10,431 bases of DNA, from the NCBI GenBank assembly GCA_022563055.1, contig JADFOB010000018.1:1-10431 (forward strand), given 5' to 3'. Shown here piece after piece: positions 2,619 to 4,670 of the stretch. The position numbers and the translations under genes were made by a program. Each line of letters opens with the position of its first letter. The first letter of the stretch is position 1. Origin of the DNA: Planctomycetota bacterium. Its GTDB lineage: Bacteria; Planctomycetota; Phycisphaerae; UBA1845. Under the pieces are notes generated by a model that worked only from the letters and a program-made list of their open reading frames with translations, was not told the DNA's origin and searched no databases.

Positions 2619-3153
2619 GCCGGGCGATGAGTTCCTGAATGATGACCGTCTTGCCGACACCGGCACCGCCGAACAGCCCGGTCTTACCGCCGCGGACCAG
2701 CGGGCAGAGCAGGTCGATCACCTTGATCCCCGTCTCGAACAGCTCCGTCTTGGACGAGAGCGTGTCAAAGGCCGGAGGTGGGCGGTGGATCGGCATGCGC
2801 GTCTTGGTGACAACCGGACCGAGTCCGTCAATCGTTTCGCCCACCAAGTTGAACACGCGTCCGAGCGTCTCTTCGCCAACGGGAACGGTCACGGGCTGCC
2901 CGGTATCCACAATCTTGGCGCCTCGCTGGAGACCGTCGGTGGAACCCAGGGCGATCGCCCGGATTCGCCCACCACCCAGGTGTTGCGCGACCTCACACCA
3001 GAGCGTTTCCTTGAAGGTCTCACCGAGCACCGTTCGCTCCAGCTCGACGTTGAGCGCATTGTAAATCTTCGGAAGTTGATCCTCCGAGAACTTCGCGTCA
3101 AGCGTCGAGCCAATGACCTGTGAGACTATGCCGTAGTTTTTGTCTGCCACCAT
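2389..3153 (-). CDS. atpD: F1 ATP synthase beta subunit, truncated after the P-loop
   Basis: Beta is the catalytic subunit of F1. From ATG 3153 the protein begins MVADKNYGIVSQVIGSTLDAKF, typical of the beta-barrel domain, and continues through GETIDGLGPV and IKVIDLLCPLVRGGKTGLF to the P-loop GGAGVGKT (residues 162-169) and IIQELIA. Homology stops at about 2620 (residue ~177-178 of a usual ~470). The frame then reads ~77 meaningless residues out of frame through flgK to a stop at 2389. The catalytic glutamate, Walker B, the DELSEED region and the C-terminal domain are all missing, as is atpC. An ATG at 3162 is also in frame, but the GGAGG at 3163-3167 abuts it with no spacer, whereas it sits 9 nt from the ATG at 3153, so I chose 3153. 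As present it cannot make a working beta subunit. Confidence 0.85.
   Translation of the reverse strand: MVADKNYGIVSQVIGSTLDAKFSEDQLPKIYNALNVELERTVLGETFKETLWCEVAQHLGGGRIRAIALGSTDGLQRGAKIVDTGQPVTVPVGEETLGRVFNLVGETIDGLGPVVTKTRMPIHRPPPAFDTLSSKTELFETGIKVIDLLCPLVRGGKTGLFGGAGVGKTVIIQELIARPGQRGDPGGVSRPDRRCLSRTGGQRTQLAHQRFLRVAQRFCDQRRIARRAPECDRGGGYLGGAVQRDRPASSRHPF
2613..2623. other. Breakpoint joining atpD and flgK
   Basis: On the minus strand, beta-subunit codons run through QELIA (last codon 2625-2623), perhaps plus the next Arg. FlgK codons become recognisable at LGSAE (from 2618) in a different reading frame. No insertion sequence or long repeat is visible at the join. Both genes face the same way, so a deletion between two loci or an assembly chimera would both produce this. 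Confidence 0.75.
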
Positions 3154-3162
3154 AATTGGCAT

Positions 3163-3167
3163 CCTCC
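3163..3167 (-). promoter_or_regulatory. Ribosome binding site of atpD
   Basis: GGAGG on the minus strand lies 9 nt before ATG 3153 and immediately against ATG 3162. The spacing favours 3153 as the beta-subunit start. The site borders the left 7-nt repeat array. Confidence 0.6.
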
Positions 3168-3170
3168 GAA

Positions 3171-3212
3171 ATACGAATGGCGAATTAAGAATGGCGAATA
3201 GCGAAAGCAGAA
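3171..3212 (+). repeat. Left array of 7-nt repeats ending in GAA
   Basis: Six consecutive 7-mers, all ending GAA, read on the plus strand: atacgaa, tggcgaa, ttaagaa, tggcgaa, tagcgaa, agcagaa. A seventh in register (ctccgaa) overlaps the atpD ribosome binding site. The array sits between atpD and the four-helix-bundle gene. Positions 3187-3207 are the exact reverse complement of 3762-3782. Confidence 0.8.
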
Positions 3213-3234
3213 TCGGACTATGGGGTTGCCCTGA

Positions 3235-3585
3235 TCATCCTTCGCGTGACCGCTTGACGATCGTCGTCAAGATCCGCACCAACTCATCCGCTTCACCAAT
3301 GATATCCTCGAACCTTTCTTTCTCCAGCAGGTCGCTTTCCGCGACCAATCGAAGCCAGTACAAGGCTTCGCGGGCCTCACGGCGAGCGACATTCATACGG
3401 TGCGCGAAGTCTCGCTTGGAATGCGAACCCTGCGCCTCCTCGACATTCGCCCCTACACTCGTTCCCGATCGCACCAACTGCCGGGCAGCAACGGCCCCCA
3501 CTGTGGTTCGCGGTATTGCATTCACCAGTTTTACGATGCGAACCGCGAACGTAAACGTCCGCTCCTCAATATCTCGCGAACCCAT
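3235..3585 (-). CDS. Four-helix-bundle protein (23S rRNA IVS / S23 family)
   Basis: A 116-residue protein of the four-helix-bundle family first known from ORFs inside intervening sequences of 23S rRNA genes (TIGR02436-type) and structurally like the Avd protein of diversity-generating retroelements. Hallmarks are visible: RTFTFAVRIVKLVNAIP (helix 1), QLVRSGTSVGANVEEA (36-51), DFAHRMNVARREAREALYWL (59-78) and a C-terminal helix EADELVRILTTIVKR. The length is typical for the family. ATG 3585 is preferred because family members start close to this point; a TTG at 3636 would add 17 unconserved residues, and neither start has a good Shine-Dalgarno. Its molecular function is not established. It interrupts the ATP synthase operon between atpG and atpD on the same strand and has repeat arrays on both sides. 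A weak TACAAT -10-like box lies at 3719-3724. Confidence 0.85.
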   Translation of the reverse strand: MGSRDIEERTFTFAVRIVKLVNAIPRTTVGAVAARQLVRSGTSVGANVEEAQGSHSKRDFAHRMNVARREAREALYWLRLVAESDLLEKERFEDIIGEADELVRILTTIVKRSREG

Positions 3586-3756
3586 ATGAGTGATTTCGCT
3601 ACGGCCACGGAGCGTCCCAGCGTCTCGGTCTGTCAAAAGTGGCTCTTAGCACTCCTGCAGGGGAATACTTCGGCCCGTACACAATCACCGGCCCCTCCTA
3701 CCAACCACTCGAACTCACATTGTAATCTCAACCATCCCGCCTTCGCCATCCGCTAT

Positions 3757-3798
3757 CTCTTCTTTCGCTATTCGCCATTCTTCCTTCGCTATTCCAGC
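3757..3798 (-). repeat. Right array of 7-nt repeats, including the atpG stop
   Basis: On the minus strand the end of atpG reads in 7-nt register: GCTGGAA, TAGCGAA, GGAAGAA, TGGCGAA, TAGCGAA, AGAAGAG. The pair TGGCGAA-TAGCGAA is identical to the left array but inverted. The TAG stop codon of atpG (3791-3789) is the first three bases of the TAGCGAA unit, so the array begins exactly at, or overwrites, the end of the gene. Confidence 0.75.
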
Positions 3799-4670
3799 GC
3801 ATTCGCTCCCCCCACGATGTCCAGCAGTTCCATCGTGATGTGCGTCTGCCTGGCGCGATTGTACTTGCGCGTCAGACTAGTAATCATGTCGCCCGCGGCA
3901 TCGGTGGCGGCCTTCATGGCGACCATGCGCGAGATTTGCTCGCTCACCGACGCGTCTATAAAACATTGAAAGAGCCGCACCCGCACCGTCGCAGGCAGAA
4001 GTTCGTCGAGCAGTTCGCGCGGCTGGGGAGAGAACTCATAGTCTAGGCGAGCACCGCCGGCCCGAGCGTCGCGCTCATCCTCCTCCCCGCGCGTCAGCGG
4101 GAGCAGTTGCATGACCGTCGCACGCTGCCGACCGACGGAGTGGAACCGCATATAAGCTACGTGAGCCGAGGCGATCTCACCTTTCGTGAACCGATCGATC
4201 AGCGCATTGGCCAGCGGCTCCACGTCGTCGTATTTGGGCATGTCGCCGATGTGCGTAATGCGCTCGACCATGGGTCGCTTCAGGAACTTGAAGTAGTTGA
4301 TCCCCTTTTTGCCGACCATCTGTACGTCGTTGTCGACGCCCTCCGCCTTCGCGCCGTTCAGGTGTCCAATCGCGGTTCGCAGGACGTTGCCGTTGTAGCC
4401 TCCACACAGCCCGCGACCGCTGCTGATGACGATCATGGCTGCTTGTTTGAGATCCTCGGGCGCCTTGAGCAGCGGATGGTCGACGCCGACGGCGACCTCC
4501 GAAAGATCCCCCACCATCGCGGCGAGCCTCTGCGTGTAGGGTCTCGCCGCCGTGGCGCGGTTCATGGCCACCTGGAAGCGTGCCGTCGCGATAAGCTGCA
4601 TGGTCCGCGTGATCTTGCGGATGTTGCGAACCGCTTTCTGGCGTTTTAGGAGGACTCGTCTGTTGGCCAT
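3789..4670 (-). CDS. atpG: F1 ATP synthase gamma subunit
   Basis: Gamma is the rotating shaft that couples c-ring rotation to catalysis in alpha3beta3. The protein has 293 residues, close to the usual 285-295. The N-terminal coiled-coil helix (KAVRNIRKITRTMQLIATARF) is present, as are the Rossmann-like middle with SSGRGLCGGYN (83-93; usual form SDRGLCGGFN), and the C-terminal helix with RMVAMKAATDAAGDMI (248-263) and KYNRARQTHITMELLDIVGGANALE at the end. It starts at ATG 4670 with a weak ribosome binding site, 55 nt after atpA. The C-terminus is complete by comparison with the family, but its stop codon lies within the 7-mer repeat array, so the original 3' untranslated region has probably been replaced. 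Confidence 0.96.
   Translation of the reverse strand: MANRRVLLKRQKAVRNIRKITRTMQLIATARFQVAMNRATAARPYTQRLAAMVGDLSEVAVGVDHPLLKAPEDLKQAAMIVISSGRGLCGGYNGNVLRTAIGHLNGAKAEGVDNDVQMVGKKGINYFKFLKRPMVERITHIGDMPKYDDVEPLANALIDRFTKGEIASAHVAYMRFHSVGRQRATVMQLLPLTRGEEDERDARAGGARLDYEFSPQPRELLDELLPATVRVRLFQCFIDASVSEQISRMVAMKAATDAAGDMITSLTRKYNRARQTHITMELLDIVGGANALE

Follow-up and report, generated by a model that had tools for sequence, protein, structure and literature searches.

The locus examined here raises the question of what a gene encoding a four-helix-bundle (4HB) protein of the S23/IVP type, framed by inverted arrays of a short word, is doing between atpG and atpD in a window of 10,431 nucleotides (the whole stretch of DNA analyzed) from a Planctomycetota bacterium (contig JADFOB010000018.1). 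The features of the window, whose atp operon lies on the minus strand, are collected in Table 1.

Table 1. Features of the 4HB locus and its host genes (positions in the window)
Feature	Position	Strand	Description
4HB (S23/IVP four-helix-bundle) gene	3235..3636	-	133 aa from TTG; ATG at 3585 would give 116 aa
5' arm (gene orientation)	3740..3794	-	GAATRGC-type heptamer array, TRF period 21 = 3 x 7; begins at the atpG stop codon
3' arm	3167..3211	-	same word, inverted; end directly abuts the atpD ribosome binding site
21-nt perfect inverted match, copy 1	3187..3207		sequence reading and shuffle test
21-nt perfect inverted match, copy 2	3762..3782		sequence reading and shuffle test
atpG, host gene upstream of the element	3789..4670	-	PF00231
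atpD, N-terminal part, host gene downstream of the element	2641..3162	-	PF02874 and first 37 positions of PF00006; remainder absent from the contig

The protein encoded in the window matched PF05635 (E = 4e-21) and TIGR02436 (E = 3e-27) in a profile search, in agreement with the S23/IVS-family identity proposed in a first-pass annotation of this DNA. That annotation had also reported inverted 7-mer arrays at both ends of the unit with a perfect 21-bp match between them, and both were confirmed: the arrays (3175 to 3211 and 3758 to 3794) measure 37 nt each, are 89% complementary, and are separated by 546 nt, while the longest perfect match in 1000 dinucleotide shuffles of one arm was 11 nt. The exact placement between a stop codon and a ribosome binding site was likewise borne out by eye at both array ends, the atpG stop codon falling within the first array unit (GAA-TAG) and the opposite array ending just before the GGAGG of atpD. 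Neither a Y1 (TnpA-REP) transposase nor any other transposase family was detected in the window unit, whose gene gave PF05635 only. Further downstream, at 2389 to 2666, atpD stops after ~175 codons and the middle and end of flgK continue in another frame, a junction which, from the sequence, would be either a rearrangement or a chimeric contig.

TIGR02436 was found in 77 of the 101 genomes of the order to which G001, the genome of L012, belongs (G and L numbers denote genomes and loci). A set of 89 copies was assembled from 88 of the matches listed, best scores first, and the window, genomes with several copies or long contigs being favored. Repetition at lag 7 was elevated in the flanks of the gene (0.364 and 0.347) relative to far flanks (0.269) and the inside of the gene (0.256), and lag 8 showed a lesser increase (0.322 and 0.299, versus 0.266 in far flanks). 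Arm matching, in which each left arm was compared with every right arm, could be scored in 88 copies (87 from the planctomycete order and the window; L136 lacks enough flank). The inverted pair belonging to a copy reached a median score of 21, compared with 8.5 against the arms of other copies and 8.5 for its own pair in direct orientation; the own partner ranked first in 55 of the 88 copies and within the top five in 72, and the mean own-arm score lay 43 standard deviations above 20,000 permutations (z = 43). Such matching within copies upholds the earlier suggestion that the inverted arrays and a four-helix-bundle gene constitute a recurring unit. Because 224 pairings between arms of different copies of one genome scored a median of 8.5, versus 21 for own pairs, the word is common to both arms of a copy but, as a rule, not to copies elsewhere in the genome. 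The idea of a shared word as the mark of the element was, accordingly, abandoned, as words vary from copy to copy, and TGGCGAATAGCGAA, formerly put forward as such a marker, does not serve as one.

The period of the arms was 7 nt in 41 of the 89 copies, 8 nt in 24, and 6 nt in one; four were aperiodic, 18 had weak arms, and one was too short. The same arm threshold was passed 48 times in 445 random segments, of which seven were at period 7 and two at period 8. A rule of "always heptamers" was also rejected, since the class located in dnaE2 (see below) has mostly 8-mers. Two near-identical 4HB genes situated 8 kb apart in G031 (L161 and L162) possess no recognizable arms. Copies with more similar proteins also have more similar arms (Mantel r = 0.29, p = 5e-4; 67 copies), mean arm similarity being 0.40 at 65% protein identity or more and about 0.16 below 55%. 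After realignment, 44 of 62 copies showed a mirrored order of units, which is modestly more than expected. Mismatches between arms comprised 101 G-U and 94 A-C (p = 0.67; 71 copies, with 26 leaning each way), and this absence of a G-U bias is as expected if DNA copying, rather than RNA pairing, keeps the arms alike. Signs of purifying selection on the 4HB protein were apparent from dN/dS, which took values of 0.06, 0.09, 0.10, 0.23, and 0.32 in the five computable pairs among ten, the remainder being saturated; synonymous sites approach saturation in most pairs, and the values 0.09, 0.23, and 0.32 derive from copies nested in open reading frames (ORFs).

The atp site itself was compared through an AtpG scan of the genome contigs, in which the best 80 of 579 loci were kept; an atpD start was detected nearby in 45, and the other 35 could not be scored for the spacer. 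In 41 of the 45 scored loci (among the best 80 of 579), the gap spanned 13 to 198 nt and held no 4HB gene, in keeping with the initial view that a ~620-bp separation of atpG and atpD by such a gene is unusual. Twenty of these 41 gene-free spacers belong to distant Pseudomonadota (L061 to L080). The other four loci (L012, L017, L021, and L045) harbor a co-oriented 4HB gene (43 to 57% identity) in a gap of 499 to 564 nt, and all four have inverted arrays whose words, by eye, are unlike that of the window. A profile search did not detect TIGR02436 in the genomes of L071, L079, L002, L003, L031, and L001. In L036, the atp spacer holds, by eye, inverted arrays without a gene between them.

In a tree of the 89 4HB proteins, which is built on few alignment columns and drew a program warning on the long branches L096 and L097, one clade of 14 rows (support 100/99) takes in all nine atpG-atpD copies, that is, those of eight genomes and the window. 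This placement rules out a recent insertion at the atp site, and the gene there is, as judged by sequence comparison, an old, orthologous resident common to several relatives. As the nine copies of this one clade carry, by eye, about six arm words among them, it is evident that arm words change while the element stays. The first-pass annotation had named conservation of the same gene and spacer across distant relatives as the outcome that would speak against a cassette; because the gene is an orthologous resident in several relatives, that outcome holds in part for the atp site. One of the atpG-atpD copies (L099) has an internal stop and may be dying. Two 4HB elements of different clades and words adjoin a single atpG at L166 (G018), one just upstream of it and the other between atpG and atpD. 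At L146 (G009), an element of the atp clade lies just upstream of atpG rather than between atpG and atpD, and the position within the atp operon, therefore, differs.

Signs of possible movement came from other sites. Within the clade that includes L100, L101, L102, L117, and L121, DNA-level similarity extends over the genes but not into the flanks, which points to movement, with the qualification that flanks were compared by blastn, which can miss diverged flanks, and that L107 and L121 share flanks. Plasmid pC052_A of Nostoc sp. C052 (L248) contains a 431-bp element at a position that, in pC052_D from this strain, is occupied instead by 197 bp of different sequence, representing part of a small ORF without a Pfam match; five further Nostoc plasmid loci are also without the element (six sister loci in all). 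No target duplication was seen in the alignment of this one site, whose flanks have different histories: the right flanks of pC052_A and pC052_D are 99.8% identical over 1460 bp and the left flanks 90.4% over 1440 bp. Because of this difference, the end of the element is also a recombination border, and homologous recombination may have carried the element into the plasmid, which weakens the case for movement drawn from Nostoc. A related copy is located at an unrelated site in Dolichospermum plasmid pAfl69 (L247), the gene and right arm matching those of L248 over 384 bp at 78.3%; the two have the same word in both arms and different neighbors, and L247 possesses an extra array between the left arm and the gene. 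Further sister-site searches returned no element-free locus among the matches examined, partial matches aside.

Copies also occur outside intergenic gaps. The dnaE2 frame of G001 remains open for 1748 codons across two 4HB elements, and that of G002 for 1306 codons across one, which is inserted after the NTPase domain (ending at residue 598) and before the finger domain (beginning at residue 791) of the Pol III alpha subunit. Among 30 dnaE2 loci taken, 23 were readable across the site (five lacked the second anchor and two the first), of which 11 were filled (636 to 1032 nt) and 12 empty (129 to 183 nt). All 11 filled loci have lengths divisible by 3, a host frame free of stops, and the 4HB gene in one and the same relative frame; as these loci are related, they do not amount to 11 independent trials. 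That relative frame was free of stops in 12 of 77 control 4HB genes and interrupted in 65, the controls being the 89 copies less 10 of the dnaE2 clade and two with a stop, and still including L140 and L147. In L147, an Eco57I-type restriction-modification host gene (identified by Pfam) is open through its 4HB gene in the same relative frame, and L140 looks like a case of the same type, Pfam having been run on L147. Of the ten dnaE2-clade rows in the 4HB tree, nine share flanks or sit in the same gene, while the flanks of L124 differ. The in-frame nesting in dnaE2 is a clear-cut example of a single stretch of DNA being read as two genes. The notion that the element spares its host genes by sitting between them thus stands as far as the readability of the hosts is concerned, but not as to location, given the in-frame copies inside dnaE2. 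Two dnaE2 loops without a 4HB gene, L218 (G037, scored as empty) and L224 (G073), resemble, by eye, scars of a lost array.

Arrays were also present at a distance from the gene. More than 300 nt away from a 4HB gene, 22 period-7 arrays were counted in 175.9 kb of flank and 24 in 1160 kb of background, an enrichment of ~6-fold, with four of the 24 background arrays being arms of resident copies; for periods 7 and 8 together, the counts were 43 and 26 (10.9-fold), 20 of the 21 period-8 arrays in the flanks originating from five dnaE2 loci. The arrays are, therefore, not strewn genome-wide without a link to the gene family, a pattern which the earlier annotation had regarded as contrary to its proposal, but are ~6 times (7 nt) or ~11 times (7 and 8 nt) denser near 4HB genes than in the 1.16-Mb background. 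Nine of the 22 period-7 flank arrays resemble the resident word (score of at least 16), and at dnaE2, extra arrays numbered 27 in 29.5 kb of filled loci and 6 in 39.1 kb of empty ones. On the 69-kb plasmid pAfl69, 9 of 11 period-7 arrays, bearing the resident word, cluster at 27.3 to 33.7 kb around the 4HB gene; these nine consist of the two arms, one array in a helicase gene, two in a hypothetical gene, three in the methyltransferase gene, and one across the end of that gene. G009 contains 13 period-7 arrays in 360 kb, eight of which belong to short hairpins with 16 to 61 nt between the arms, and the word CGARTAG occurs in nine of the 13 as well as in the arms of the atp-clade copy L146. The 200 kb sampled from G085 and from G059 contained eight and three period-7 arrays, respectively, and in both counts two are the arms of a resident copy. 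Neither 7- nor 8-nt arrays were detected in 200 kb each of G012 and G018, though both carry elements, and distant arrays were consequently dismissed as a general rule.

A search of the PLSDB plasmid database gave 25 records, from which 16 copies were taken (Cyanobacteriota, Chloroflexota, Bacteroidota, Spirochaetota, and Bacillota). Inverted arms scored at least 16.5 in 15 of the 16, L244 being weak at 11.5; another copy's arm outscored the own arm in L238, L240, L241, and L253 and tied with it in L247, and words recur among the plasmid copies, three of which are Planktothrix relatives (two of them nearly identical). Between Planktothrix L241 and L242, the number of units differs and the gene differs by 2 nt. 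The 4HB gene lies between two annotated genes of the same strand in 13 of the 16 copies. Annotated neighbors include the defense genes drmD and pglX and hsdS and hsdR, and L246 and L249 are situated in CRISPR loci. Five copies (L241, L246, L247, L249, and L252) adjoin defense-type genes (DISARM, helicase and methylase, type I restriction, or cas1), perhaps merely because such genes abound on plasmids. In the Chlorohelix plasmid (L238), the 4HB gene apparently stands, by eye, between two direct copies of a hairpin of ~110 bp, each composed of inverted arrays. Two copies, L145 and L156, are located within 23S rRNA (LSU_rRNA_bacteria), have the arm word AAACTAG, and encode 4HB proteins which are sisters in the tree. 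The 23S intervening sequence (IVS) of Coxiella is reported (PMC4990558) to have tandem GACAGAT heptamers, of strain-variable number, upstream of its S23p ORF, and in view of these heptamers and of the AAACTAG arms, the 23S IVS fits the same plan.

On balance, and with moderate confidence, we favor the explanation that the unit is a selfish hairpin element: a single 4HB gene enclosed by two arms, each an array of the same 7- or 8-nt word in inverted orientation to the other, with copying from arm to arm taking place in the DNA. The arm-to-arm copying step and the role of the 4HB protein are what we infer. The inverted arms would form a hairpin or cruciform in the DNA, slippage would alter how many units an array holds, and snap-back (foldback) template switching would copy one arm onto the other, whereby the word would drift in concert and the arms would remain complementary. 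Putative binding of the hairpin, as DNA or RNA, by the 4HB protein would favor the keeping or spread of the element; that the protein may bind hairpins is a guess based on its predicted fold, and the Xanthomonas 4HB protein is described in PMC4990558 as a toroidal pentamer. Insertion would occur through replacement or through template switching, not through a transposase that duplicates its target, and surviving copies would be those which leave their hosts readable, whether placed between a stop codon and a ribosome binding site, within rRNA, or in frame between two domains of a protein. This reading is weakened by the 18 of 89 copies with weak arms, including the near-identical L161 and L162, and by the lack of 7- and 8-nt arrays in the 200 kb of G012 and G018, two of the five genomes sampled, and by the only modestly positive unit-order test (44 of 62).

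The principal alternative, which we consider possible yet unlikely, is a host regulatory cassette, in which the 4HB protein and an RNA stem would regulate or process the operon mRNA, with an RNase III-type cut between atpG and atpD, and selection for RNA pairing would keep the arms complementary. The signs of purifying selection and the orthology of the gene at atpG-atpD in eight genomes and the window speak for such a function. RNA folding of the window was better than in 20 shuffles (z = -5.2), although good folding is expected of any inverted repeat. The 23S IVS of Coxiella is, moreover, excised by RNase III according to PMC4990558. A regulatory role is, however, difficult to reconcile with the lack of a G-U excess over A-C among the arm mismatches, with the 41 of 45 scored atp spacers which do without the element, and with copies in unrelated operons, plasmid defense genes, rRNA, and ORFs.

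We regard as improbable a retro-mobilized element whose 4HB protein acts like Avd with a reverse transcriptase supplied in trans. An AlphaFold model (pLDDT 90) resembles Avd (4dwl, E = 0.035) and a ribonucleoprotein of diversity-generating retroelements (DGRs; 8ub7, E = 0.043), ranking after the S23 proteins 2rld and 2gsc, but a plant pectin methylesterase inhibitor (1x8z, E = 0.019) stands above Avd. RVT_1 was, furthermore, found in 47 of the 101 genomes, as opposed to 77 for the 4HB family, and the two do not track each other (drafts may miss genes); at least 14 genomes which carry 4HB genes gave no RVT_1 match, including G030 (12 copies) and G020 and G038 (seven each). Skipping of in-ORF elements, by RNA splicing or ribosome bypassing, so that their sequence would be free, is very improbable: the arms could bring the edges together, and empty and filled dnaE2 alleles coexist, but the host frame is free of stops through all 11 elements, versus stops in 65 of 77 controls, and every filled length is divisible by 3. 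Finally, simple-sequence slippage in spacers which happen to adjoin 4HB genes hardly merits credence, since, despite the over-representation of heptamer repeats in bacterial genomes reported in PMC4692102, chance is refuted for the sampled set by the matched-arm control (z = 43, in inverted orientation only and mostly within the own copy only), and the local enrichment of arrays near 4HB genes also speaks against it.

Returning to the selfish hairpin element, we find it narrowly probable that the free-standing S23/IVP genes of many phyla are not host genes but the single gene of a large, unnamed class of mobile hairpins, with private 7- or 8-nt words arising from concerted rewriting of the arrays. 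Such a class would spread both between the genes of operons and, in frame, through ORFs, would seed short solo hairpins in its neighborhood, and would take in the classical 23S rRNA IVS as one special case. Proteins matching TIGR02436 and PF05635 bear the annotation "four helix bundle protein" without an assigned job; if true, this proposal would supply the family with a testable one, connect the 23S rRNA IVS with the elements found in operons and ORFs, and perhaps account for some of the excess of 7-nt arrays seen in bacteria. Arms which stay complementary despite a changing word would, in addition, represent a natural record of inverted-repeat copying.

Several known systems share individual traits with the element. 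In REP/RAYT systems, a gene is flanked by inverted hairpin repeats and further repeats occur elsewhere; here, in contrast, the sole gene belongs to PF05635, no transposase family is present, and words differ between copies. Rickettsia palindromic elements are palindromic selfish DNA in frame inside protein genes, but are not known to carry a gene of their own, whereas a second gene is nested in another frame in the 4HB elements. Avd of DGRs has a similar predicted four-helix fold, with weak E-values, but no reverse transcriptase consistently accompanies the 4HB gene, and inverted short-word arms are not a known DGR feature. Heptamer arrays, mostly intergenic, have been described in Xanthomonas and Nostoc (GGGAATC and GGGGATT) and in Beggiatoaceae (TAACTGA), in papers whose main text mentions neither "helix bundle" nor "S23"; the reverse complement of TAACTGA is present in an arm of L110. 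The literature searched, chiefly open papers without bioRxiv preprints, offered no description of copy-specific words, in-ORF copies, or extra arrays, and nothing there, including the work on heptamer arrays and the S23 IVS, reports copy-specific inverted arrays around free-standing 4HB genes. The closest likeness is that to the 23S rRNA IVS with an S23p ORF, which shares with the window the protein family and an ORF bordered by complementary, stem-capable ends; unlike it, the window copy lies between protein genes, atpG and atpD, and thus outside any 23S rRNA helix, and there is a real chance that the hairpin element is a class of its own rather than a variant of the IVS.
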